Virus record (IMG/VR): IMGVR_UViG_3300009790_000039
Span: 1 to 33,422 of that record
DNA: 33,422 nucleotides
From: a virus
Reading direction: 5' to 3' (one strand)
The position numbers and the translations under genes are program-made. The notes under the pieces are model-generated. The model saw only the letters and a program-made list of their open reading frames with translations, was not told where the DNA came from and did not search any database. This document shows positions 6,524 through 29,417 of the stretch, piece by piece (position 1 is the first letter of the stretch; each line of letters starts with the position of its first letter).

Positions 6524-7165
6524 ATGACAAGCAGTGCAATACCTTACGGAGTGTCTACCGAACTAGATGCTGTAAATTCAATCCTGATGAGCGTTGGAGA
6601 GACCCCAGTTAACACATTAACAGTGCAGAGCCCAGAGGTGGCTATCGCACAAAAGACTCTAAGGCAAGTCTGCCGTGAGATACAAGCTGAAGGCTGGTCA
6701 TTCAACACAGAAAACGCATACCCCATATCACTTGTAAACAACCAGTGTGTAGTACCTAACAATGTTCTACAAATTGACCTCAATATATTTGAGCACGGTA
6801 AAGATTATAATGTAGTTAGACGTAGTGATAATGGTGTGATGAAGGTATACGATAAGAAGAATCATACCTTTACCTTTGAAAATTGTAGTAAATTATATTT
6901 CGATATTGTGTGGATGCAAAAGTTTGAAGATATCCCACAGGTGTTTAAAGATTACATAACCACGAGAGCGTCCAGAATCGCCTCTAACCGTATGGTAAAC
7001 AGTCAACCATCTGCTAAGTTACTTGAGGCAGACGAAGCTCTTGCAAGGGCAGCTTGCGTAGAGTATGAGAACAGGCAAGCTGATCATAACATCTTCAGTG
7101 ACTACCAATATCAACAAGATGCTAACACTGTATACCGACCATTTAAAGTATTAAGAAGAATGTAA
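6524..7165 (+). CDS. Tail tubular protein A, T7 gp11 family
   Basis: 213 residues (T7 gp11 196). It opens TELDAVNSILMSVGETPVNTL, the typical start of this family, with WSFNTENAYP near residues 60-69 and an internal segment DIPQVFKDYITTRASRIASNRM. Gp11 forms the gatekeeper ring below the portal to which the nozzle and fibres attach. It is the first gene after the post-capsid terminator. The stop TAA shares its last base with the gp12 start (TAATG). Confidence 0.95.
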   Translation: MTSSAIPYGVSTELDAVNSILMSVGETPVNTLTVQSPEVAIAQKTLRQVCREIQAEGWSFNTENAYPISLVNNQCVVPNNVLQIDLNIFEHGKDYNVVRRSDNGVMKVYDKKNHTFTFENCSKLYFDIVWMQKFEDIPQVFKDYITTRASRIASNRMVNSQPSAKLLEADEALARAACVEYENRQADHNIFSDYQYQQDANTVYRPFKVLRRM

Positions 7166-10179: not shown

Positions 10180-10609
10180 GTACATTAAGACCTGCACTCC
10201 AGAGTTAGCTCTCAGTGTGGGTCTTAACTTACGATATGAAGATAGACGTGAAGCTGAAGAGACCTCTGGTTTATGTGCTGAAGCATCTATAATACAATCT
10301 TATTTCGCCTCAGAATATTCCGTATATTTTAAGGTTCCCAACGGCAAGGCTGCTGGAGTGGCAGGAGTGACTCCAAACAATCTTATCTGGATGCTATGTA
10401 CTGATGCTAGTACAGAGTACCCACATACATTTGTTAGAGAAGCTAAACGCTGGGTGAACAGTTTACCCAATCCTTATTTATGCAACCAAGCAGACATGCG
10501 GAATGAATCACATATTAAACTATTAAAACTTTTAGGTTTTACCTTTGTCAACTATTACGTCTACAACAATGTACCCTTAATTACATTTATCAAACCATGT
10601 GTACGATAA
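10142..10609 (+). CDS. Internal virion protein A, T7 gp13-like (acetyltransferase-like fold)
   Basis: 155 residues (T7 gp13 138). The C-terminal half matches T7 gp13 in layout: a helix VREAKRWVNSL, a strand, then NESHIKLLKLLGFTFVNYY, equivalent to NTSHIRFLKTIGAVF in gp13 and typical of N-acetyltransferase-like folds. Gp13 is needed for virion morphogenesis and infectivity in T7. Whether it keeps an enzyme activity is unknown. ATG 10142 is inside gp12; a second ATG at 10166 is possible, but the first gives a coherent N-terminus. Confidence 0.75.
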   Translation: MAFTTIDDMYEGKYIKTCTPELALSVGLNLRYEDRREAEETSGLCAEASIIQSYFASEYSVYFKVPNGKAAGVAGVTPNNLIWMLCTDASTEYPHTFVREAKRWVNSLPNPYLCNQADMRNESHIKLLKLLGFTFVNYYVYNNVPLITFIKPCVR

Positions 10610-11331
10610 TGGCGTTTAGCATTGGTATGGGTGCTGCTCAAGCTGTAACAGGTATTGCAGAGCAGAATCGCCAACACCGTGCTCAAGTCGATGCTGTGAA
10701 TCGTAGTAACCAGATGGCTCGTCAAAAATATTTGAATGACATAACCATCTCAGCTTTTAACGATCAACGAAAGGGTGAAGTATTTACAGCACAATTACAG
10801 GCTGATGCTGCAGCGAGAACTGCATATTATCAGCAAAAAGAAATAAATCAAATCGAACATAGTAGAGCGTCTGAAGCTGCTCAAGCTGAGTTACGAGAAA
10901 AAGTAACTAAGACTTTGTTTGAATCACAAGAAAATTTAGCAAAAGCTATAGAAGCTCAGGGACAAGTTCTGGCTAGTGGACAACAAGCTGGTCAATCTAT
11001 GCTGTTAACTATTGATGATATAGAGAGAAAGTTTGGTATGGCAAATGCACAACTTGATGCTACTATATTTGATGCAACCAGAGCCTATGGTATTAAGCAA
11101 TATGGAATCGACTTAGATTCTTATGCTGCTGATACAACGGCATTTAACGCTATCACCACATCTGCACATGTAGCTCCTACAGCTTCATTCATGACGCAGA
11201 AACCAATCGAACAAAAAGCTCCTCCTAAACCATCCCCACTTGGGCCTATACTTGGCGGTATAAGTACTGTATTTAGTACAGGTTCTTCTCTTGGTGGTGA
11301 GGGATACTGGCAGGAACAACTAGGCGGATAA
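10597..11331 (+). CDS. Internal virion protein B, T7 gp14-like
   Basis: 244 residues (T7 gp14 196). The N-terminus MCTIMAFSIGMGAAQAVTGIAEQ resembles T7 gp14 (MCWAAAIPIAISGAQAISG): a hydrophobic Gly/Ala-rich helix followed by long Gln-rich helices. In T7, gp14 is ejected and forms a channel in the outer membrane. ATG 10597 overlaps the gp13-like stop by 13 bases and keeps Cys2; ATG 10609 is the alternative start. The C-terminus is Pro/Gly-rich. Confidence 0.85.
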   Translation: MCTIMAFSIGMGAAQAVTGIAEQNRQHRAQVDAVNRSNQMARQKYLNDITISAFNDQRKGEVFTAQLQADAAARTAYYQQKEINQIEHSRASEAAQAELREKVTKTLFESQENLAKAIEAQGQVLASGQQAGQSMLLTIDDIERKFGMANAQLDATIFDATRAYGIKQYGIDLDSYAADTTAFNAITTSAHVAPTASFMTQKPIEQKAPPKPSPLGPILGGISTVFSTGSSLGGEGYWQEQLGG

Positions 11332-11335
11332 CAAC

Positions 11336-14300
11336 ATGACATACACAGGAAGTACTCAGAACTCTTCCTATTCTAAACGTACGTACAACAAGAAACTATC
11401 AACAGATCTTGCTGACTATGCTAAGGCATTGGATACGCAACGTAAGACACAGGTTAAAGAGTTCCAGCAGCAATCTAAGGATCAGCTCTCAGAGTTAGAA
11501 AGACAAGATGGTGTACAACGTAGTAACGATAAATTTCAGATAGCTCAGTTATCTAAGTTTAGTGACACATTAAATGATTTCTTAGAGACCACTGCTAAGA
11601 CTGTAGGTAAAGCATACATTGACAATAAACGTCAAGAAGGTGTTGAACTATACAGGAAATACCAGGCAGGTGATAAAGACGCTATTGCAGAAGTAGAGGC
11701 AAATACTGAACAATTAAAAGAGATTAACGACAAAGTTAACTCAATGTCTCAGGAGATAGGAGAGTCAACAGAGGCTTTTCTTGACAGAAAATTTAAGGAA
11801 GAAGTATCACTAAAAGATAAGATTAAAGCATTAAATATACGTAAGCTAAGTCCTAACATTCGTTGGGGTTTTGTAAGAGCTCAACTACAAGAAGCTGGGC
11901 AAGGTTATAACGGTCATTTAATAGACACATTACATAGTAGTAAAGAAGAGTTTACAACTAGAGATGGAACTACATATGTAATTGGTAACTATAGTGAAAT
12001 ACTTGATACTAAGCATAAGAAAGAAATAATAGATTATGTAGAAGATCAGTACATTGAAAACAACAACCCGTTTGGTGCTGCTGATGTAGTTAGAAACAGT
12101 TACTTAACAGCTAAGGTAGTAGAGACTACACAGAAGTTTGAAGAAAGAGAATTACTAAGAGATATAGCTAGACAGGGTGAACAAGAACAGACAGGTCGTG
12201 TAGATACATTTATCACAGCTGCAGTCAATTATGATGAAAGCAAGATAGAGACAGTCGATGGCGAAGAAGTAAACTCAAGTGCAGTAGCCTTAACAGATTC
12301 TATACAAGTAATTTTAGATGAAGGGCCAGCAAGTGAAAAGCTGATCAACCAGAACACTAGCCCATTTAAAGCTAACAAAACTAGAGTTATAGAAGCTATT
12401 AAAGAATCTATATCTTTCTTGGATGAAGAATCTGCAGAAGATTTTGTCGAGCTATTATTAGAGAAAGAGTTTAAGATGGCTGGTATGGAGGGTACACTGG
12501 AAACTTTGTTTGCAGGTGACCTTAACTTATTAGAGTTACTAGAAACTCATAAGAAAGATTTAAGTAATAGATATTTTGCTGAAAAAACTGCAGCTAAATC
12601 ACAGTTGTTTAAGGAAATAAACCAAAAGCGTATTGAATATCATGAAGGTAAAATAACTTTAGAAGAGTATAGACAACACCACTTAGAGATCAAAGATAAC
12701 CCTGCGTACAATATTCTCAGAGGAGATTCAGAAAATATATTAGAGAATAGTATAGATGCTATGAAGAACTGGAATCCATTAGAATTTAACTACGTGGATT
12801 CTATAAAGAAAATAGATGATATCATGGCTGAGACAGGTTATCTAACTAGAGATGACATAGCTCAACTAGATAAAGATGCGAGAGCGTTCTTCTTTGAAAA
12901 CGTAGGGGAAGGTAAAACATATCAATATAAAGAGGAGCCTATATGGAATAAGGTAGGTAAGAAACAGTTTGGCGAGACCGTTAAAATATATACCGATAAA
13001 CTTGAAAAGTCTATTGACTCTGTCATCACTAAAGAAGTTACTGCAATAGGTGACCAAGCTATTAGAGATGGAGTTATTGATGGTACTAATGCAGAACTTA
13101 ACCGACTCATGCACTTAAACTATCTAAATGGTATGAGTGGCACAGATGCTATCAAAGCAGCATATAGAGAGGTAAGTGAAGCGTTAGAAGCAGGTACAGG
13201 TATATTTATTAGAGACGGTGATAAGTTCATACACCCCAACCTACAGCCTAATTATATTGATGAAGCTAGAAAAGTTGAGCGACAAATTTTAGACGGTTCT
13301 ATTGTAACTAATAAGTTAGATATATTACAGGCTAACGGTGCTCCAGAAGACTTCCTTAGAAATACTATCCTATTTGAAAAAGATAGTGCTTTAATTAACC
13401 TAGAGAAAGGTGAGGATGGCTTAATACGTTTCATACCAAACGCTATGTTTGAGGTAGCAGAGTACAGTGAGACAGGATATACAGCTATTGATATCATTAA
13501 TATGCAGCGTAAACTTCACGGTGAAGAAGAGTACAAACTAACTGACTTTTCACCAGAGCTACAAGCATTACATACTGGAGTCAAAGAACAATTCCCTCAC
13601 CTTGCAAAAGTATTTAGCAGCGGATCTGAAGGAATGTCTTTAGCTATAGATGAGATAGGTGCTGTCGATCTCAACACACTACTCAATGCAAGCATCATCA
13701 ACATGGATAACTCTATATTTGAGGGAGATCTAGATGCTGTATTAGCTAGGGAAGGTATAGATAAGGAAAATTACTTAACTGATTCTAGATTACAGGAAGA
13801 GGTTAGACGTAAACAACTTAACTACCTACTTAAAAAGGCAGTAACAGAGACCAATGACAAGAACCAAGCTATCCTTATGGTGGCTACAGGTATGAGATAT
13901 GGTGAAGCTGAGATGTCTAACTACGGTGAAGGTAGTATATTTGACAGTAAGAAAAATGATAAGTCTGATTATGCGTATGCTGTATTAGATGCCTATTATT
14001 CTGGCGATACCTCTAAACTTCATGGTAAATATAATGATGAGAAGGTCACAGTTGCTGAGTTACGAGAGTGGACTAAGACTGAGAAGAAGTATGATCTAGA
14101 ACCAAACTACGTTATTGAGAGTATAGTTAATGTAGAAAACATGTGGGATATTGATTATAGAGATCCACAGAAGATTAAAGCTATATTAGCCATACTCGAA
14201 GACCCACAGTTTATGCCTGAGAAGACTCTAACTGTTAAGAGTGATGGTTTGTTTGGTAGCAGTAATATCAACAACCCCCTATACTCTAGATACCAGTTTG

Positions 14301-14626
14301 CGTTAAAGATATATAAGAACATTGACAACACCCTAGGTCACCTACAAGACAATAACCTTAAACCGTTCTTAACTAACAAACAAGAGAACTGGAATCTGGT
14401 ACAACTTCTAAAGTTCCAGAAGGAAACAGATAACGGTGGTAGACCTAATAATACAGTTGGTATTTTTGAAAGTCCTTACTATCAATTTAGAAATGAATGG
14501 ATGGAAAAAAATGGCGAGAAATTTTATAAGGCAGATAAAGAACAAATCAAAGTACTACAAGCAGAACGTCTGCAGTATATTGTAGACAGATCAAGAGAAA
14601 TGTTAGGTTTCACGGAGGATGACTAA
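11336..14626 (+). CDS. Internal virion protein C, T7 gp15-position
   Basis: 1096 residues, longer than T7 gp15 (747). Highly charged and almost wholly helical, with Lys/Glu/Gln-rich coiled-coil-like stretches (for example residues 25-75 around TQRKTQVKEFQQQSKDQLSELERQ and about 100-160) and no membrane helix. Identity is inferred from its place between gp14 and gp16 and from its composition. In T7, gp15 joins gp16 in a periplasm-spanning ejection tube with DNA-translocating activity. The 1-base TAATG overlap with the next gene indicates coupled translation. I see no peptidoglycan hydrolase motif. Confidence 0.8.
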   Translation: MTYTGSTQNSSYSKRTYNKKLSTDLADYAKALDTQRKTQVKEFQQQSKDQLSELERQDGVQRSNDKFQIAQLSKFSDTLNDFLETTAKTVGKAYIDNKRQEGVELYRKYQAGDKDAIAEVEANTEQLKEINDKVNSMSQEIGESTEAFLDRKFKEEVSLKDKIKALNIRKLSPNIRWGFVRAQLQEAGQGYNGHLIDTLHSSKEEFTTRDGTTYVIGNYSEILDTKHKKEIIDYVEDQYIENNNPFGAADVVRNSYLTAKVVETTQKFEERELLRDIARQGEQEQTGRVDTFITAAVNYDESKIETVDGEEVNSSAVALTDSIQVILDEGPASEKLINQNTSPFKANKTRVIEAIKESISFLDEESAEDFVELLLEKEFKMAGMEGTLETLFAGDLNLLELLETHKKDLSNRYFAEKTAAKSQLFKEINQKRIEYHEGKITLEEYRQHHLEIKDNPAYNILRGDSENILENSIDAMKNWNPLEFNYVDSIKKIDDIMAETGYLTRDDIAQLDKDARAFFFENVGEGKTYQYKEEPIWNKVGKKQFGETVKIYTDKLEKSIDSVITKEVTAIGDQAIRDGVIDGTNAELNRLMHLNYLNGMSGTDAIKAAYREVSEALEAGTGIFIRDGDKFIHPNLQPNYIDEARKVERQILDGSIVTNKLDILQANGAPEDFLRNTILFEKDSALINLEKGEDGLIRFIPNAMFEVAEYSETGYTAIDIINMQRKLHGEEEYKLTDFSPELQALHTGVKEQFPHLAKVFSSGSEGMSLAIDEIGAVDLNTLLNASIINMDNSIFEGDLDAVLAREGIDKENYLTDSRLQEEVRRKQLNYLLKKAVTETNDKNQAILMVATGMRYGEAEMSNYGEGSIFDSKKNDKSDYAYAVLDAYYSGDTSKLHGKYNDEKVTVAELREWTKTEKKYDLEPNYVIESIVNVENMWDIDYRDPQKIKAILAILEDPQFMPEKTLTVKSDGLFGSSNINNPLYSRYQFALKIYKNIDNTLGHLQDNNLKPFLTNKQENWNLVQLLKFQKETDNGGRPNNTVGIFESPYYQFRNEWMEKNGEKFYKADKEQIKVLQAERLQYIVDRSREMLGFTEDD

Positions 14627-17600
14627 TGAGTGAATCGTTAAATCCTGTCAGCTCATACGATTATCCTACCGATACGGATTTTACGGAGCTGCGGGAAGTT
14701 GGTGCAGAACTATTAAAGAACCATAAGAGAGAGGAACTAGAAGAGTTAAAGGCAAAAGAGGCTGGTGAGGATCAAGGTTTCATAGCTAATGATCCTGTCA
14801 CAGCTATCAAAGATGTCGCAAGTATAGTTCCAGGGGCTGCCATTGATGCTGTAGAAAGCATAGGCTCGTTCCTAGATCTTAGTGGTGACACATTTAACAC
14901 AGCAGCTGCTAACCTATTTGGGTATCATCAGTTTGAGTCTGACAACCCTTTTAGTGAGCACTATCAAAAAGGTAACTGGTTCGATGTACCTGATCAATTT
15001 ACACCTGAGACTAAATCAGGTATGGGTAAATTGCTAAGAGGTATAGGTGAGTTCGGTATACTAGCTGTACTCACTGCTAAAACAGGAGGACTAGCAGCTG
15101 GTAGCCTCGGTGGTGCTGCAAAGGGTATGATGGCTGGCTCAAAGATTGCTAACGCAGCAACTAAGATAAAAGCTGGTAACAGAGCTATTAATTTCCTAAC
15201 AAGTCCTACAGTAACTAAATGGGGTAAAGTAGCCTTAGACGGTGCTGGAGCTGACTTTATTATGAATGACAGTGAGGAAGGTAACATAGCCAACCTTGTA
15301 GATCAATACGCCCCCGCCATACCATTTAGTAAAGCCTTATCAGTAAACGAGGAAGATAACCCTTGGTTTGCCAGAATTAAATCAGTAACAGCTGGAGCAG
15401 GTGTAAACATTCTTGGACATGCTTTAGTAGGATATATAAAAGGTAGATTTGTAGCTACTAAAGAGGCAGAAAAAGGTATTAAGTTATTAAAAGCAGGTAA
15501 TTTAAAAGATCCTGCTTATACAGGTACTTATGCTCAAAACGTAGAACAAGTCATAAAAGATGCTAACGCTAAAGGTACCAAAGCAACCTATGACTACATA
15601 CGTCACAACCAATATGATGACGCAGCAGAGAGTAGGGTACGTGCTAACGCTGCCTATGCAGATGGCAAAGGTTTCCGTAGTGAAAATGAAGTAGATAATT
15701 TAGACCTATATTTACGTAAATGGTTAGAGCCAGAAGACTACGAAGAAGTACAAAGACTGTTTGCGGGTGAAGATCTTAAGGGTGATATTACTATTAAAGA
15801 TCCTGAGTTTGGCGATACGGTAATAAAAGAACAAGATCGTATAGTTGATACTCGTGGTAAAGGTACATATTTTCATGGTGCTGCAGCTGAGATAGATAAG
15901 TTAACAGGGCCATATGACTCTGATGCTTACTTTGGAAAGAACGGCCCAGGATTATTTGGGTACGGTTTCTACACCACAGATGACATCATCACTGCTAATA
16001 AGTACAAAACTAAGAACTTAACCAAAGCTGAGTTATCTGAACCTCAAGTTTACCAGACCCGTGAAAAAATACCAGTAAATTTTTATGACCTAGATCAACC
16101 TATGTCTAAACCTGTACTCGCTGTTTTAGACGAGATTATGGGTGAGGGTTCATGGAACGGACAAATATCTGACGCTATCGACAGTGCACTCGCTGATATC
16201 GGTAGGGATGGTAGTCTTGCAGATCTAATCAGAGAAGCCCGTACGTTTGCAAATTACGACTCTGGAGTTACTGGAATTGACTTTGCTGAGTCAGTACTAG
16301 AGCGTCTTGAGACGGCACTCAAGGGATTAGGTTTTGGAGGGTATACACATAAAGGTGGTATCTACAGAGCTAAAGGTAAAAGAACACATCAAGTACGTAT
16401 TTACTGGGATCCTGGCAATCAGCTAGAGTTAGGTAAAACTTCTACTGAGACAGCTACATTACAAGACTACATTGACTTTGCAATGAGAAAAGGTAGAGCT
16501 GGTAATGATGCTTGGTTGCCTGATCAAGGTATGAGCCAATCTCAAGAGCGTTTTAATAGATTCCGTAAACCAGACCCTGATGTAAACCCTAACAAGTTTG
16601 CAGAGAATGAGAGAGCTAGTGAGCGTACATCTACTGACACAGGTAATCCTTACACTGAGTATGTAGAAGAAGCTACTAAGATGAATGACATGGGTTATAG
16701 AGCTGTAGGTTCTACTAACATGTCTACCACTACCAGACTCAGACAGATGACAGGTAACGACAAAGAGTTACGTAAACTGGCTGAAGAGGTAATGAACAAC
16801 ACCTCAGAGGGTGACTTTGCACAGATTGATAATGCACAACCATTTGTCAAGAGACTAGATGCCTACCATCAGATGGCTAAAGAGATCAATGAGATCATAG
16901 CTGTTGGTGGTGACGAAGGTGTGGAAGCACTTAGACGTTACCTTAATGCAGATGTTGGTAGTAAAAAAGTTGTCAATGTATCTGACTTAAATGGTAGAAA
17001 GAATTTTATATTCTGGGATTTTGACGGTGATGGTATTGTATCTATCACACCACAGATGGCTAATGCTTTAAAGATTGCAACTCTTTATAATCTGAAGAGA
17101 GCGTCTGATATAGCTACAGGAGTTATGCAGTTGCCTAAAGGTGCTAACCCCACACGGCAAGCTATGGATATACTTGATCATGTACAACTAGCAATGGTTG
17201 AGATGAAAAAGATCTCGTATATGTCAGGTGCTGCATTAGAAGTACACAAAGGTCAAGGTTTATTTGACGGTACACTCAAGAAAAAATTGGCGAAAAAAGT
17301 TAAGCAGATTGAAGTAGAAGAGAGAACTTTTACTGAGAACTTGAAGGAGATGATTAGAAATGGTGATACTAAACAAGCTCGTCAACTAACTGAAATATAT
17401 GCTATCAGTGACGGTGCTGTAACAACCATGTCTAACATCCAGAACTACCTTAAAAAGAGGTTAGGTCTAGGTGGTGAGCTTAACGGTAAGCGTATACCTG
17501 CTCAAATATTTAGAGAATTAGCGTCTGTATATTACGCTTCTATACTTAGTGCTCCTAAAACAGGTGTAAGAGCTGTTGTAGGTACAAACCTAATTACAGT

Positions 17601-19440
17601 ACTCAGACCATTCCAAATGTGGGTTGGAGCTACACTGCGAGGTAACAAGGCACAAGCTGCCGTAGCTGCCTCTGCTATTGATAGTATAGGACACGCATAT
17701 GCAGAGAGCTGGAAAGTCTTTAAATATAACTGGGATCAGGGTGTACATAATAAGAGAATGTCTTATCAGGGACGTTTTGATATACCTAGAGATTTAGAAA
17801 ACTTTAAAAAGTTAGCAGAGTTTGCAGATCAGTATGGCACTCCATCCGAACAGAGGATGTACAATGTCATTAACAACCTTGTCAAACTAAACACTAGCCC
17901 TTGGTTTAGATACTCACAGAATATCATGGGGGCAGGTGATGCTGCAGCTAGATCCGTACTAGGTAGATTTACCGCTCGTATCAGAGCAGCTCAGGAAGGT
18001 GTAGAAAAGGGTATACCTTTAGACAACTTAACTGATTATGCTAAGGCACAAGAGCAAAGATTCTTTGATCAGATATTTGAAGTTAGTGACGGTAACCAAT
18101 TTGTAGTAACAGATCAAGCTGCTTTAATGGCAGGTAGAGAAGCTACTATGACTAAGGACATCGAAGGCTGGTGGAAAGTATTTGAGACTTTAGGTAAACA
18201 CCCACTAGGTATGGTATTCTTCCCGTTTGCTAGAACTGGTTATAACGCTCTACGTCTAACTACACAACACACTCCCTTGGAGATGTTTAGTAAGAGATTT
18301 AGAGACATCAAAGCAGGTGTAAACCTAGAGAAATATGGACTAACTAAAGCAGACCTACCAGCTGAACAGGCACTTATGGAAGGTAGAATTGCTATGGGTA
18401 CTGCTATTGTCGGTATGGCTATACTTGGGGCATCTCAAGGTAACATATACGGTGATGTACCCCGTGATAAAGAGATGAGAGACCTATGGAAGATGGAAGG
18501 TATCAAACCTTATACATTCCGATTCAATAATACATTAGTATCATATAGAGATCTCGAACCATTTAACACAATTATAGCAACTGCAGCTAATCTATTTAAC
18601 TATCAGCATGCCTTAGATGAGGATTTATACTCAGAGTTTGCAGAAACATTAATCTTTATGGCTTCTGCTGCTATTGTAGATAAGTCTATGCTTGCAGGTG
18701 TGGACGATCTAGCTACTATTCTAGACCCCCAGGGTTTCCAGAAGAAAGGTGCTAGGTTATTTGCACAGACAGCAAGAAGTGCATTGCCTTGGTCTGGTTT
18801 ATTAGGCAGTATAGGTGATGTATTAGATGCAAACCAAAAGGAAGCTGAGAGTATGTGGGAGATAATGATAAGAAGAGACGCTCTATTTAAGGCTAGTCTA
18901 CCTCCTAAGTATGATATCTTAGCTGAGGATAGGTCTGGTCAGCCATTTTTAGTAGGGCCATCTAACCCTCTACTAAGGGCTATGAATATGATATCTCCTA
19001 TTGCAGTAACAAACACCTCTAAGGACGCTGTAAAGACAACTTTATATGAGATAGGCTACAACTTACCAGAAGTAACTAGAACATATAAGGGTATAACGCT
19101 CACTACACATGAGAGATCCTTAATGTCTAAGTACCTTTCTATGAGTAGTCTACGTAAAGACCTAGAGAAAGTGTTTGCAAGCAAGGCTTTTAAGGACGGT
19201 TATAGAGAATTTAGGGAATTATCACTCCGTAGACGTAACGGATACAGAGTAGAAGACCAAGAGTTCTATAGAATGGTACAGAAAGTCTTTAGAAGAGCAA
19301 AGAAAGAAGCATATTTACAGATGATAGGTGAGAATCCTGAGCTTAAAGATAAGCTAGAGGAGGCTGCAAAGAAGAAGAGACTAGGACAAATAGGTGATTA
19401 CGAGAATATAAAATATTTAATAGACGGTTTCCCTAAATAG
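14626..19440 (+). CDS. Internal virion protein D, T7 gp16-position, with ART-like module
   Basis: 1604 residues (T7 gp16 1318). Gp16 is ejected into the host and completes the DNA channel across the inner membrane. An N-terminal hydrophobic segment (about residues 125-170, rich in Gly and Ala) may insert in membranes. Residues about 413-605 resemble an ADP-ribosyltransferase (separate entry). The C-terminal 900 residues, including FRELASVYYASILSAPKTGVRAVVGTN and LGKHPLGMVFFPFARTGYNALRL, resemble large ejected proteins of other podoviruses. I could not find the lytic transglycosylase domain that T7 gp16 has at its N-terminus. The gene ends in TAG, with a 25-base gap before the fibre gene. Confidence 0.82.
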   Translation: MSESLNPVSSYDYPTDTDFTELREVGAELLKNHKREELEELKAKEAGEDQGFIANDPVTAIKDVASIVPGAAIDAVESIGSFLDLSGDTFNTAAANLFGYHQFESDNPFSEHYQKGNWFDVPDQFTPETKSGMGKLLRGIGEFGILAVLTAKTGGLAAGSLGGAAKGMMAGSKIANAATKIKAGNRAINFLTSPTVTKWGKVALDGAGADFIMNDSEEGNIANLVDQYAPAIPFSKALSVNEEDNPWFARIKSVTAGAGVNILGHALVGYIKGRFVATKEAEKGIKLLKAGNLKDPAYTGTYAQNVEQVIKDANAKGTKATYDYIRHNQYDDAAESRVRANAAYADGKGFRSENEVDNLDLYLRKWLEPEDYEEVQRLFAGEDLKGDITIKDPEFGDTVIKEQDRIVDTRGKGTYFHGAAAEIDKLTGPYDSDAYFGKNGPGLFGYGFYTTDDIITANKYKTKNLTKAELSEPQVYQTREKIPVNFYDLDQPMSKPVLAVLDEIMGEGSWNGQISDAIDSALADIGRDGSLADLIREARTFANYDSGVTGIDFAESVLERLETALKGLGFGGYTHKGGIYRAKGKRTHQVRIYWDPGNQLELGKTSTETATLQDYIDFAMRKGRAGNDAWLPDQGMSQSQERFNRFRKPDPDVNPNKFAENERASERTSTDTGNPYTEYVEEATKMNDMGYRAVGSTNMSTTTRLRQMTGNDKELRKLAEEVMNNTSEGDFAQIDNAQPFVKRLDAYHQMAKEINEIIAVGGDEGVEALRRYLNADVGSKKVVNVSDLNGRKNFIFWDFDGDGIVSITPQMANALKIATLYNLKRASDIATGVMQLPKGANPTRQAMDILDHVQLAMVEMKKISYMSGAALEVHKGQGLFDGTLKKKLAKKVKQIEVEERTFTENLKEMIRNGDTKQARQLTEIYAISDGAVTTMSNIQNYLKKRLGLGGELNGKRIPAQIFRELASVYYASILSAPKTGVRAVVGTNLITVLRPFQMWVGATLRGNKAQAAVAASAIDSIGHAYAESWKVFKYNWDQGVHNKRMSYQGRFDIPRDLENFKKLAEFADQYGTPSEQRMYNVINNLVKLNTSPWFRYSQNIMGAGDAAARSVLGRFTARIRAAQEGVEKGIPLDNLTDYAKAQEQRFFDQIFEVSDGNQFVVTDQAALMAGREATMTKDIEGWWKVFETLGKHPLGMVFFPFARTGYNALRLTTQHTPLEMFSKRFRDIKAGVNLEKYGLTKADLPAEQALMEGRIAMGTAIVGMAILGASQGNIYGDVPRDKEMRDLWKMEGIKPYTFRFNNTLVSYRDLEPFNTIIATAANLFNYQHALDEDLYSEFAETLIFMASAAIVDKSMLAGVDDLATILDPQGFQKKGARLFAQTARSALPWSGLLGSIGDVLDANQKEAESMWEIMIRRDALFKASLPPKYDILAEDRSGQPFLVGPSNPLLRAMNMISPIAVTNTSKDAVKTTLYEIGYNLPEVTRTYKGITLTTHERSLMSKYLSMSSLRKDLEKVFASKAFKDGYREFRELSLRRRNGYRVEDQEFYRMVQKVFRRAKKEAYLQMIGENPELKDKLEEAAKKKRLGQIGDYENIKYLIDGFPK
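15862..16440 (+). other. ADP-ribosyltransferase-like module inside gp16-type protein
   Basis: Residues about 413-605. Motif order as in phage-associated H-Y class ART domains: GTYFHGAAAEID (H417), GLFGYGFYTTDDIITANKY (Y449, followed by the expected helix), FYDLDQPMSKPVLAVLDEI, then LKGLGFGGYTHKGG (about 566-579) and a closing strand HQVRIYWDPGNQLEL. The third catalytic residue (usually Glu/Gln) cannot be assigned by eye. The domain is embedded in a protein delivered into the cell, so a host target such as RNA polymerase, as for the injected T4 Alt enzyme, is a reasonable inference but not shown. Confidence 0.6.
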
Positions 19441-24506: not shown

Positions 24507-24928
24507 AGAGTAATATTGGAGTAACGAGCCACAGAATAAGAACGGATTTTAAAATACTTAAAACAATAAATTGTAAGTCTTTAGAAGCTGTGGAACTTAT
24601 AGTTCATAACTTAGAACATTTAAAAAAAGCTAAGTTTCCGACTGTAAAGATTCCGCAGTTTTCATACGAAGTATCTGATCTTGTAATTACGCAAACTTGT
24701 GAATTGATAAAAGGATGTGCAGTATCATGTCATCCCTCTAAAGAAAAAGTAATTATGAAAGAGATTGTCCAGAGAAAGGACGATTATACGTTTTCTGATT
24801 ACCACCACAGTAATTACATAGTAAGAGATAATGACTTATACGCTGTAGATCTCAGTTCGTATGGATATCTACCAGATCACTACTACCGAAACCACCTATG
24901 GATCAACAGACGCAAATCGTGTCTGTAA
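24485..24928 (+). CDS. Minimal kinase-like protein (phosphotransferase C-lobe pattern)
   Basis: 147 residues. TFSDYHHSNYIVRDNDLYAVDLSSYG (residues 102-127) resembles the catalytic loop and metal site of aminoglycoside/choline kinase-like enzymes: D105-x-H107-x-x-N110 and D122 in place of DFG. Upstream, VITQTCELIKG (67-77) resembles the hinge. There is no glycine-rich loop or upstream lysine, so the N-lobe is tiny or absent. Activity is doubtful, and it could be a relic or a lobe that acts with a partner. The gene starts 22 bases inside the distal fibre gene, suggesting co-translation with it. I am sure of the gene, less so of the fold. Confidence 0.5.
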   Translation: MLHNENLESNIGVTSHRIRTDFKILKTINCKSLEAVELIVHNLEHLKKAKFPTVKIPQFSYEVSDLVITQTCELIKGCAVSCHPSKEKVIMKEIVQRKDDYTFSDYHHSNYIVRDNDLYAVDLSSYGYLPDHYYRNHLWINRRKSCL

Positions 24929-25380
24929 GTAATTTCTGTACTAAACAAGAATTAGAAACAGTACTGAGATACACACACGATAAGAATTGGGCAATACAAA
25001 CAAGTAACACAGGGGACTCAACAGAGTTCTTTAAGCTCGACTTAACTAACATTAAGTTTTTTAATGATACTTTATTTAATAAATTAAAGAATACATTAAA
25101 GATTGAGTGCTCATTAGACAAAGTTTACTTTAATTTGCAGTACCCAAATCAACATGGTTCATTGCATCAAGACTATTGCCAATACACAGCTATATTGTAT
25201 GTAACTCCCTGGAATCCAGAATTAGGGGGATTTACACAGATTATGAGTAATAAGATTCTTGTCATTCCCCCCATACAAAATTCTTTAATTTGTTTTCCGT
25301 CACACTTATTCCATAAGGGATATGCTTGTACACACAATAAACGAATTTCCCTTGCATACAAATTAAACCTACACCAATGA
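24898..25380 (+). CDS. 2OG-Fe(II) oxygenase-like protein 1
   Basis: 160 residues. Double-stranded beta-helix pattern with the iron triad H90-x-D92 (SLHQDYCQYTAILYV) and H139 (SHLFHKGYA), and R149 ten residues later (HNKRISLAYKL), the usual 2-oxoglutarate-binding position. Such enzymes hydroxylate or demethylate substrates using O2 and 2-oxoglutarate. The substrate is unknown. It overlaps the kinase-like gene by 31 bases and the next oxygenase gene by 4 bases (ATGA). Confidence 0.72.
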   Translation: MDQQTQIVSVSNFCTKQELETVLRYTHDKNWAIQTSNTGDSTEFFKLDLTNIKFFNDTLFNKLKNTLKIECSLDKVYFNLQYPNQHGSLHQDYCQYTAILYVTPWNPELGGFTQIMSNKILVIPPIQNSLICFPSHLFHKGYACTHNKRISLAYKLNLHQ

Positions 25381-26141
25381 AACTATTTCAAACATTTAGA
25401 CATCCAGTCCCAACCTTTAGAGATCAAATTTATGTAGCCGACAAACAGTTAACACCTGAGTTTTGTAAGGCATGTATTGAAAAATTTGAAAGCGACCCAG
25501 CTATTTACAGCGGAGTTACAGCAAGTGGACTTCAAGTAGATACTAAACAATCTGACGACTTAGTGATCTCAAATTATAACCGTTGGAATAAAGAAGATAA
25601 CCAGATAGCAAACCAACTCACTAAGAACTTAAATAATTTCTTTGTGTCATTTGGCGAAAGATTTAGCTGGTGGACTCATCCAGAAATACACGATACTGGT
25701 TATCAAATACAAAGAACTCATCCCAATGGTTTTTATAACTGGCACTCAGATGCTGGTAATAGCACAAGGTGGTACACATTCATTTTCTATTTGAATGACA
25801 TTAAGAATGATGGTTATACAGAGTTCATTGATGGTACAAGGATACAACCTAAAACTGGAAGATTACTTCTATTTCCCGCTACAGACATCTATGCACACAG
25901 AGGTGTAGCTCCTAAAGACGAGATCAAGTATATCTTAACAGGATGGTTGCATAGGGATTTTGATGGAGATACAAGAATCAAAGGTAAGTGGCATGACTTA
26001 ATAACCGAGCCAGAAAAGCACAATCCTACTTTAGATGACTTACCTGAGAACAGATTTGATGCTGAAGATCAACACATAACACTAATAGAAGGAGAGGAAT
26101 TAGATATCGAAGATAACAATGTACAAATGATTTTAGATTAA
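25377..26141 (+). CDS. 2OG-Fe(II) oxygenase-like protein 2 (P4H-type)
   Basis: 254 residues. The iron triad is H123-x-D125 (FYNWHSDAGN) and H174 (IYAHRGVAP); K184 sits ten residues after H174, the lysine used by prolyl 4-hydroxylases to hold 2-oxoglutarate. GYTEFIDGTRIQPKTGRLLLFPA (146-168) is the core strand typical of this superfamily. A 55-residue acidic tail (about 200-254) follows the fold. The target is unknown; fibre or virion proteins or host proteins are possible. Confidence 0.85.
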   Translation: MKLFQTFRHPVPTFRDQIYVADKQLTPEFCKACIEKFESDPAIYSGVTASGLQVDTKQSDDLVISNYNRWNKEDNQIANQLTKNLNNFFVSFGERFSWWTHPEIHDTGYQIQRTHPNGFYNWHSDAGNSTRWYTFIFYLNDIKNDGYTEFIDGTRIQPKTGRLLLFPATDIYAHRGVAPKDEIKYILTGWLHRDFDGDTRIKGKWHDLITEPEKHNPTLDDLPENRFDAEDQHITLIEGEELDIEDNNVQMILD

Positions 26142-26423
26142 ATGGCAATCACTACCACGTGGGACGTAACCAGTCTACGCAGAGACAGTACAGATAAAGT
26201 CACTACTATTTCATATCTAGTAACCGCAAAGGAAGGTTCAAAAGAATCCGATGCTCAAGGTTCTGTTGAAATAGATGGTGATGTAACTGTAGCTTTCAAA
26301 GACATAACAAAAGACACGGCAATTACATGGGCTAAGAACGCATTAGGAGATGAGGTCGCATCTATAGAGGGTATGCTCTCTAAAGATCTTACCGAAACTA
26401 GCGGTGTGCCTTGGATTTCCTAA
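26142..26423 (+). CDS. Small beta-rich protein between oxygenases
   Basis: 93 residues, MAITTTWDVTSLRRDS...VTTISYLVTAKEG. I recall this short type in many cyanophages near tail and fibre genes and regard it as a probable small virion-associated protein. No enzyme motif is present. It starts on the base after the previous stop and its end overlaps the next gene by 13 bases. Confidence 0.6.
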   Translation: MAITTTWDVTSLRRDSTDKVTTISYLVTAKEGSKESDAQGSVEIDGDVTVAFKDITKDTAITWAKNALGDEVASIEGMLSKDLTETSGVPWIS

Positions 26424-27034
26424 ACTGCCAAGTACCTCATCAAGTAATAGATGAGATTTACAATCCACTCCTAAATGCACACGAATGGCGTGATGGAAAA
26501 GAAAACGCTGGGGACGAAATAAAAGATAGGAAGATACAAGACTTCCTAAGTTTTGACAGTTCCCTACACAATGCTCTTATTCCACGAGTAATGGAAATAC
26601 TTGAATATGACCTCATCAGAAACTACACCGTACCTAACGTAATGAGTAATATCATGTTTACCAGAACTATGGTAGGCGGTAAATACGGTGGGCATTATGA
26701 TAATGTCTGTATGAATGGGAATCGAGCTGACTATTCCTTCACGTTATTTTTAAACGATGACTACACAGGTGGAGAGTTAGAAGTTAACAAGACTCTTGTA
26801 AAACCTAAAAAAGGTAAGCTCTTTGTTTACCCGACACGGTATTACCATCAAGTAAAAGAAGTTACTGATGGAACTCGGTATGTCGCTGTCGGTTGGATAA
26901 CATCTATAGTTCAAGACGCAGATATAAGAACTGTTGTTGGTAAACTAGCAGAAGTTTCCAAGAAACACCCAGAGGTCAAAAATGACCTAACATACCTTGA
27001 GAATATACTTTTACAAAAATTCGGACAATTCTAA
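26411..27034 (+). CDS. 2OG-Fe(II) oxygenase-like protein 3 (PKHD-type)
   Basis: 207 residues. Triad H95-x-D97 (GGHYDNV) and H146 (YYHQVKEV), with R156 ten residues later (GTRYVAVGWI), as in PKHD-type hydroxylases such as PiuC. YTGGELEVNKTLVKPKKGKLFVYP is the expected core. The start must be TTG 26411: an in-frame TAG lies at 26399-26401 and the first internal ATG would remove the N-terminal third. A TTG start overlapping the previous gene suggests low, coupled translation. Confidence 0.85.
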   Translation: MDFLNCQVPHQVIDEIYNPLLNAHEWRDGKENAGDEIKDRKIQDFLSFDSSLHNALIPRVMEILEYDLIRNYTVPNVMSNIMFTRTMVGGKYGGHYDNVCMNGNRADYSFTLFLNDDYTGGELEVNKTLVKPKKGKLFVYPTRYYHQVKEVTDGTRYVAVGWITSIVQDADIRTVVGKLAEVSKKHPEVKNDLTYLENILLQKFGQF

Positions 27035-28784: not shown

Positions 28785-29417
28785 ATGCAATTAACTACAC
28801 CGCCTGTTGGATTCTGGTTACAAGATAACGTACCAGATGACTTAGTAAAACATCTCTGGACTTGTATAGGACAGCAACAAGAAAACGTCAAACACCAATT
28901 AGCTGGCCATATATCACAGAGTTATAGCATCCCAGATACGAACGGTAAGTTCACAAAGTATCTATTAGCTATTGCTCAAGAATATTACAAGGCTTACGAA
29001 GGTCATCCTCATCAAGACACTTTGGTTAGAAAAGGTAGAGAGTGGGTTATTAAGTTAGATAAATTCTGGGTTAACTACCAGAAAAAACACGAATTTCAAC
29101 CATTACATAGCCACACTGGTATGTACTCTTTCGTTGTCTGGTTGAAAATTCCTTATAACTGTAAAGAAGAAAATGAGTATGAGTTCATGCAAGATGTCAA
29201 GAAAGATGAAAGGAACGCAGGTTGTTTCTGTTTCACTTATACAGATATTTTAGGTAAAATCAAAAATGCTTTTTATGAATTAGATCAAGACATGGAGAAT
29301 ACTATTCTATTCTTCCCTGCGGGATTAAAGCATCAAGTCTACCCATTCTTTACAAGTAACGAAGAACGAGTATCAATATCGGGAAATTTATCCATAGACT
29401 TTAATAAAAAAACATGA
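28785..29417 (+). CDS. 2OG-Fe(II) oxygenase-like protein 4 (HxH variant)
   Basis: 210 residues. A family 2OG-FeII_Oxy_5-type pattern uses H108-x-H110 (PLHSHTGMYSFVVWL) where most have HxD, with H183 (GLKHQVYPF) and R195 twelve residues later (EERVSISGN). FFPAGLKHQV is the closing strand typical of this family. The gene begins on the base after the small helical gene and overlaps TerS by ATGA. The target is unknown. Confidence 0.75.
   Translation: MQLTTPPVGFWLQDNVPDDLVKHLWTCIGQQQENVKHQLAGHISQSYSIPDTNGKFTKYLLAIAQEYYKAYEGHPHQDTLVRKGREWVIKLDKFWVNYQKKHEFQPLHSHTGMYSFVVWLKIPYNCKEENEYEFMQDVKKDERNAGCFCFTYTDILGKIKNAFYELDQDMENTILFFPAGLKHQVYPFFTSNEERVSISGNLSIDFNKKT

Follow-up and report, generated by a model that had tools for sequence, protein, structure and literature searches.

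Introduction

The stretch of DNA described here is IMG/VR virus record IMGVR_UViG_3300009790_000039, analysed over its full 33,422 nucleotides (the window). It comes from an uncultured, psbA-bearing T7-like cyanopodovirus, an ocean virus of cyanobacteria, whose closest cultured relatives are the Tangaroavirus phages, such as NATL2A-133 and 9515-10a. One long gene of the window encodes a gp16-type internal virion protein, and within this protein lies a module with the predicted fold of an ADP-ribosyltransferase (ART), which is the subject of this report (Table 1). The identity of the carrier protein, proposed in a first-pass annotation of the sequence, is confirmed by full-length homology to T7-like cyanophage gp16 and by synteny; the match to PHROG 6651 ('internal virion protein') has an E value of 1.5e-235 and spans residues 35-1594, nearly the whole length.

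The phages of Prochlorococcus and Synechococcus are among the most numerous viruses of the ocean, and the takeover of their hosts in the first minutes, before phage genes are read, is largely unexplained. An injected enzyme carried within an ejection protein would be a testable candidate for this early step. It would also suggest a further part for gp16, usually viewed as a channel for DNA: that of a delivery platform whose cargo can be exchanged.

Predicted fold of the module

The module was modelled with AlphaFold2 from a 26-sequence alignment, which gave a predicted local distance difference test score (pLDDT) of 88.6 and a predicted template modelling score (pTM) of 0.86. In module numbering, the model strands run at 11-15 (with H417), 44-47 (with Y449), 70-84, 168-173, 184-189 (with H588-Q589) and 196-201. 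An insert of four helices, about 80 residues long, sits between strands 3 and 4, and the resulting order, b1-b2-b3-helices-b4-b5-b6, is that of ARTs. The model supports a split beta-sheet ART fold for residues 405-608, very near the ART-like module that the first-pass annotation had placed at 15,862-16,440 (residues 413-605); structure prediction, which it had set as a test, did not refute its reading.

The top match among solved structures (Foldseek/VIA) is chain B of 9k3a, from the pre-ejectosome of cyanophage A4, with a Z score of 12.6 over 175 residues at 15% identity. Nearly all of the structural matches after this chain are ARTs. They include the catalytic domain of diphtheria toxin (Z 7.0), a homologue, tankyrases (6.4) and ParT (6.4), as well as MbcT, a RES toxin, NatT, Arr, the anti-CRISPR entry 6kyf (5.9) and PARP1, all at Z 5-7. 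The best match among viral models is an ART-PolyVal-like protein. The A4 pre-ejectosome was reportedly solved by Hou et al. (PNAS 2025). The numbering of the 9k3a chain fits A-4L ORF27 (1717 aa; L190 20116-25269, strand -), in which LYHGT...GSGTYFS begins at residue 1424 within a region of 1420-1604. This H-Y ART motif lies within the part seen in the solved pre-ejectosome, and such a fold is therefore present in an actual ejection protein of a cyanopodovirus virion.

Sequence relationships

Relatives of the module were collected stepwise from IMG/VR, down to about 31% identity. Among 26 diverse relatives, 21 match DUF3990 (PF13151; best E 8.4e-7) and 10 match ART-PolyVal (best E 5.9e-4). DUF3990 is a member of the Pfam ART clan, whose clade bears the triad H-Y-[EDQ] (PMC7955679), and the ARTs of polyvalent proteins were described by Iyer et al. 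2017 (PMC5512222). With hhalign, the module block of gp16 scores 39.4 against DUF3990, 28.7 against ART-PolyVal and 21.1 against a profile of the module found in phages P60 and S-CBP42, while the highest scores among 46 further blocks of this gp16, used as controls, are 15.1, 18.4 and 14.8, respectively. The 26-member profile raises these scores to 44.9, 46.3 and 34.1, and the reversed profile gives 11-14. Additional module matches elsewhere in gp16 (hmmsearch) were disregarded, as they arise from filters being switched off.

Searches of PDB sequences with phmmer and profiles gave no significant ART, only PARP16 at E of about 0.9. The module has no match in 386 genomes of the cyanobacterial phylum, nor in a genome-contig collection, both searched without a positive control, and no cellular source was therefore found there. 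A tblastn search of isolate phages returned only an insignificant Pseudomonas phage match, a hypothetical 371-aa protein of phage BL1 (L031 5428-6540; E 0.5), and two distant members of the module family gave no match among the isolates.

Conserved and putative catalytic residues

The first-pass annotation had named H417 and Y449 as the hallmarks of an H-Y class ART, and both are where it put them and are kept in all 36 distinct modules, even in the most distant relatives; the loss of these residues in close relatives, which it had named as grounds for refutation, is thus not seen. H588, V590, Y593 and W594 are among the other invariant positions. Invariance is rare in the family (12 of 204 positions), and the chance that H417 and Y449 would both fall among these positions, by position count alone, is about 0.003. 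To this pair our analysis adds a putative third catalytic position that the annotation did not mention, namely Q589 in strand 5, adjoining H588. Of the 36 modules, 27 have Q at position 589, five have K, three have N and one has D. In the alignment with ART-PolyVal, H417 pairs with H, the GFYTT strand with GFFFT and HQVRIYWDP with HDVYVAFDN, which places Q589 at the D position of ART-PolyVal; D in strand 5 is the residue of the polyvalent ART clade (PMC5512222).

In the H-Y-[EDQ] clade, NAD+ is bound by the H (PMC7955679). The window module has H in strand 1, Y in strand 2 and Q in strand 5, as this clade has, and eight of the 36 relatives have K or N at position 589. Mono-ADP-ribosylating PARPs are tabulated without an acidic third residue, as H-Y-I/L/Y (PMC7955679); since the acidic residue is lost in these enzymes, modules that lack it may still be active. 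The module is under purifying selection: its ratio of nonsynonymous to synonymous substitution rates is 0.16-0.28, similar to or slightly above that of the remaining gp16.

Presence and absence of the module

Within gp16 the module behaves as an insertion, present in some lineages and missing from others. The whole block is missing from the aligned gp16 of 9515-10a, NATL2A-133 and P-SSP7, and when the remaining isolate gp16s that were retrieved were scanned for the motif, H-Y modules turned up only in P60 and S-CBP42, and these were of another type. For the uncultured viruses, loci were found by a search with the C-terminal part of gp16, which is blind to the module. Among 40 informative loci, 27 have the module and 13 have none, a ratio that is rough because some loci are near-copies. 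On the gp16 tree, carriers are interleaved with non-carriers, and about 3-4 changes are needed. L202 is included among the carriers on account of L169, its upstream half, which has the module. In L169 (IMGVR_UViG_3300020460_000058), an in-frame TGA near locus position 6696 cuts gp16 directly after the module; it is either an error or a real truncation, as the near-identical contig L170 is intact. This distribution, which the first-pass annotation had proposed to examine in other cyanopodoviruses, extends beyond gp16. The module is also present in more distant phage proteins, mostly of 1400-3150 aa, several of them in records with a podovirus-type portal, and in one family member (L186) the same protein has the LPD5 and LPD1 polyvalent domains.

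Other gp16-type proteins hold further inserts. Six carrier loci of one clade (L215, L216, L217, L219, L223 and L236) have a second insert at gp16 residues ~650-860, directly after the ART module. It bears the HExxH motif MIHELWHTLSRYLP (MIHELWH[TS]LS) and is metallopeptidase-like, with a weak SprT-like match at E 0.012. The main hub domain of polyvalent proteins is a zincin-like peptidase (PMC5512222). Polyvalent proteins combine several distinct effector domains in a single injected protein (Iyer et al. 2017); in the window gp16 one effector-like domain was found, and the six relatives have the ART together with the HExxH insert. The cultured Synechococcus phages S-CBP42 (gp16 L029, residues 350-510) and P60 (gp16 L033, residues 390-550) carry a different, unannotated ART-like module, with the motif LYHAT...GSGVYTA...TETFLFDPSQ in P60.

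These observations could mean that gp16 of marine T7-like cyanophages holds a cargo interval, repeatedly filled and emptied with an H-Y-Q-type ART, this same ART plus a zincin-like metallopeptidase, or a different ART of H-Y-E type, and we judge the case for this to be evenly balanced. If true, the DNA-ejection channel protein would itself deliver host-takeover enzymes before phage transcription, and the third residue of this ART family would be a non-standard one, adjoining a histidine that does not vary.

Genome neighbourhood

The order of genes is portal, T7-type capsid assembly protein, psbA, major capsid protein, tail tube, gp14, the gp15-position gene, gp16, tail fibre-like genes and large terminase. 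The product of the gp15-position gene has no match in Pfam or PHROG. Between the tail fibre and the lysis/terminase genes lie four 2-oxoglutarate (2OG)-Fe(II) oxygenase-like genes, at 24898-25380, 25377-26141, 26411-27034 and 28785-29417.

Table 1. Positions in the window of the gp16-type gene, its predicted ART module and its probable ejection partners
Feature	Position	Strand	Evidence
gp14-type internal virion protein, putative ejection partner	10597..11331	+	Pfam T7_gp14, E 2.4e-9
gp15-position internal virion protein, 1096 aa, putative partner by synteny only	11336..14626	+	Between gp14 and gp16
gp16-type internal virion (ejection) protein, carries the ART module	14626..19440	+	Open reading frame, 1604 codons/aa; PHROG 6651; synteny
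Predicted ART-fold module, gp16 residues 405-608	15838..16449	+	AlphaFold2 model; Foldseek/VIA matches; profile comparisons
H417, strand 1 of the predicted ART core, motif YFHG	15874..15876	+	Invariant 36/36; model strand 11-15
Y449, strand 2, motif GYGFYTT	15970..15972	+	Invariant 36/36; model strand 44-47
H588-Q589, strand 5, motif HQVRIYW, putative third catalytic position	16387..16392	+	H588 invariant 36/36

Proposed mechanism and alternative explanations

Taking the evidence jointly, we consider it probable that the module is an ART of the H-Y-[EDQ] type inserted in a T7-type gp16, which is ejected and transfers ADP-ribose to a host macromolecule before phage expression. On its N-terminal side the insertion would be flanked by the hydrophobic region of gp16, and on its C-terminal side by the conserved part. 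The protein would be packaged in the capsid core, expelled via the tail at infection, and threaded into and across the inner membrane, and the module would refold on the cytoplasmic side. There H417 and Y449 may serve to bind NAD+, and the module would transfer ADP-ribose to its host target ahead of phage gene expression, as T4 Alt does, either favouring early phage transcription or disarming a defence. Ejection in this phage is proposed by analogy: the T7 capsid expels gp16, whose N-terminus forms the lining of the periplasmic tunnel and whose hydrophobic region crosses the inner membrane, its C-terminal part (gp16-C) is presumed to enter the cytoplasm, and the core of P-SSP7 is lost upon host attachment (PMC8954989). 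As the module is located after the N-terminal hydrophobic helices, it would be cytoplasmic by the same analogy; its catalysis and its host target are likewise putative. Early genes of T7-like phages depend on the host RNA polymerase, and an effect on transcription like that of Alt is therefore plausible, though no more so than a role in counter-defence.

Several points weigh against an active ART. Taken alone, the window module matches DUF3990 weakly (E 0.03-0.05, 13.8-14.4 bits), short of the gathering cut-off of 32.2 bits, and has no match to ART-PolyVal (PF18760, gathering cut-off 31.2 bits) at E 0.1-1, a family to which only profile comparison relates it. The Z scores to known ARTs are moderate (5 to 7) and weak if taken alone. 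The window-type module is absent from every isolate gp16 examined and is therefore dispensable for ejection. The third catalytic residue is non-acidic in the window and varies between Q, K, N and D, so weak, altered or lost activity is possible. The weak Pfam matches could also reflect a chance resemblance of a short HG...GFYT motif, with no ART at all, as could the poor model (pLDDT 49.5) given by a shallow alignment of nine close relatives; the wider alignment solved the latter, and the deep-alignment model, the fold matches, the control-calibrated profile scores and the invariance all speak against chance. With the 46 control blocks and the reversed profiles scoring far lower, this explanation was set aside as highly improbable.

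A less remote alternative is a pseudo-enzyme that keeps the ART fold for binding (DNA, NAD, the capsid core or a host protein) and serves as a structural element of the core stack or ejectosome. The varying third position would fit this, as would the place of the module within an internal core protein and the fact that the A4 protein of similar fold forms part of an assembled pre-ejectosome. Against it, the NAD-contacting pair is invariant in a family in which few positions are, and close gp16 relatives live without the module, hence it is not needed for the core; we regard a pseudo-enzyme as rather improbable. Two further possibilities are variants of the active ART that we favour, and each appears to us unlikely in its specific form. 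The one differs in substrate alone, the enzyme destroying NAD+ or modifying a small molecule or, in the way of DarT or KptA, nucleic acid, instead of a host protein. The ART superfamily includes NAD+-degrading toxins and modifiers of DNA or RNA, and the best structural matches include the RES and MbcT toxins; on the other side, host proteins are the predicted substrates of ART-PolyVal, the nearest family by sequence for which a role has been proposed (PMC5512222), and the present data fit either substrate. The other differs in target alone: instead of redirecting transcription, the ART would inactivate an immune factor of the host, in the manner of an ART-fold anti-CRISPR. Entry 6kyf, titled an anti-CRISPR protein and which we take to be AcrIF11, is among the structural matches, and the patchiness of the module between close relatives is expected of arms-race cargo. 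Any host-specific target would fit this patchiness, however, and fold similarity does not reveal the target.

Comparison with known systems

ARTs in injected polyvalent phage proteins, including that of an N4-like podovirus, were proposed earlier (PMC5512222, PMC9503650), and an ART is said to be encoded by only ~3% of podoviruses. One podovirus in the public record (MW202722) encodes, at the gp16 position, a 3209-aa protein that includes an ART-PolyVal-type domain. The first-pass annotation had taken a module of this kind to be probably undescribed in T7-like cyanophages. This holds for the marine T7-like group, in that the literature searched contained no report linking an ADP-ribosyltransferase to their gp16; it does not hold more widely, as polyvalent ARTs of phages, podoviruses included, had been described and the same fold type is present in the solved A4 pre-ejectosome. 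As far as the literature searched shows, the module family, its place in marine T7-like cyanophage gp16, its gain and loss, and its alternation with other cargo are new.

Like the polyvalent ARTs (ART-PolyVal/Tox-ART-HYD2), the module pairs an H of strand 1 with a Y of strand 2 and sits inside a very large virion or mobile-element protein that would be injected, and its sibling in L186 accompanies LPD5 and LPD1. It differs in its third residue, which is usually Q (also K, N or D) and not D, in its own signature GGFTHxGG...HQVRIYW and the helical insert between strands 3 and 4, in the window score, which is under the PF18760 cut-off, and in its carrier, a T7-type gp16. DUF3990, an ART-clan family of toxin settings, is the best family match for the single sequence and shares the FGxGFYTT motif and the strand-5 Q (NQYVF, NQLSF), whereas the DUF3990 proteins seen here are small and stand-alone (~150 aa) and the window scores under the family cut-off. 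The P60/S-CBP42 module likewise follows the N-terminal hydrophobic region of gp16 and shows an ART-like H-Y motif, but is of another subfamily, with the acidic strand-5 motif TETFLFDPSQ, on a separate lineage of the gp16 tree.

The A4 protein (9k3a chain B; A-4L ORF27) also occupies the gp16 position in a cyanopodovirus, and its H-Y ART-like fold, seen in the capsid core, is matched at Z 12.6; it differs in its low identity (15%), in its family (Saffermanviridae) and in the position of its module near the C-terminus. T4 Alt, which belongs to the R-S-E clade (PMC5512222) and is a separate head protein rather than part of an ejection channel protein, is alike in role by analogy: it is an ART that is packaged in the virion, injected, and active ahead of phage gene expression, and an injected enzyme within gp16 would extend this principle to the T7-like cyanophages.
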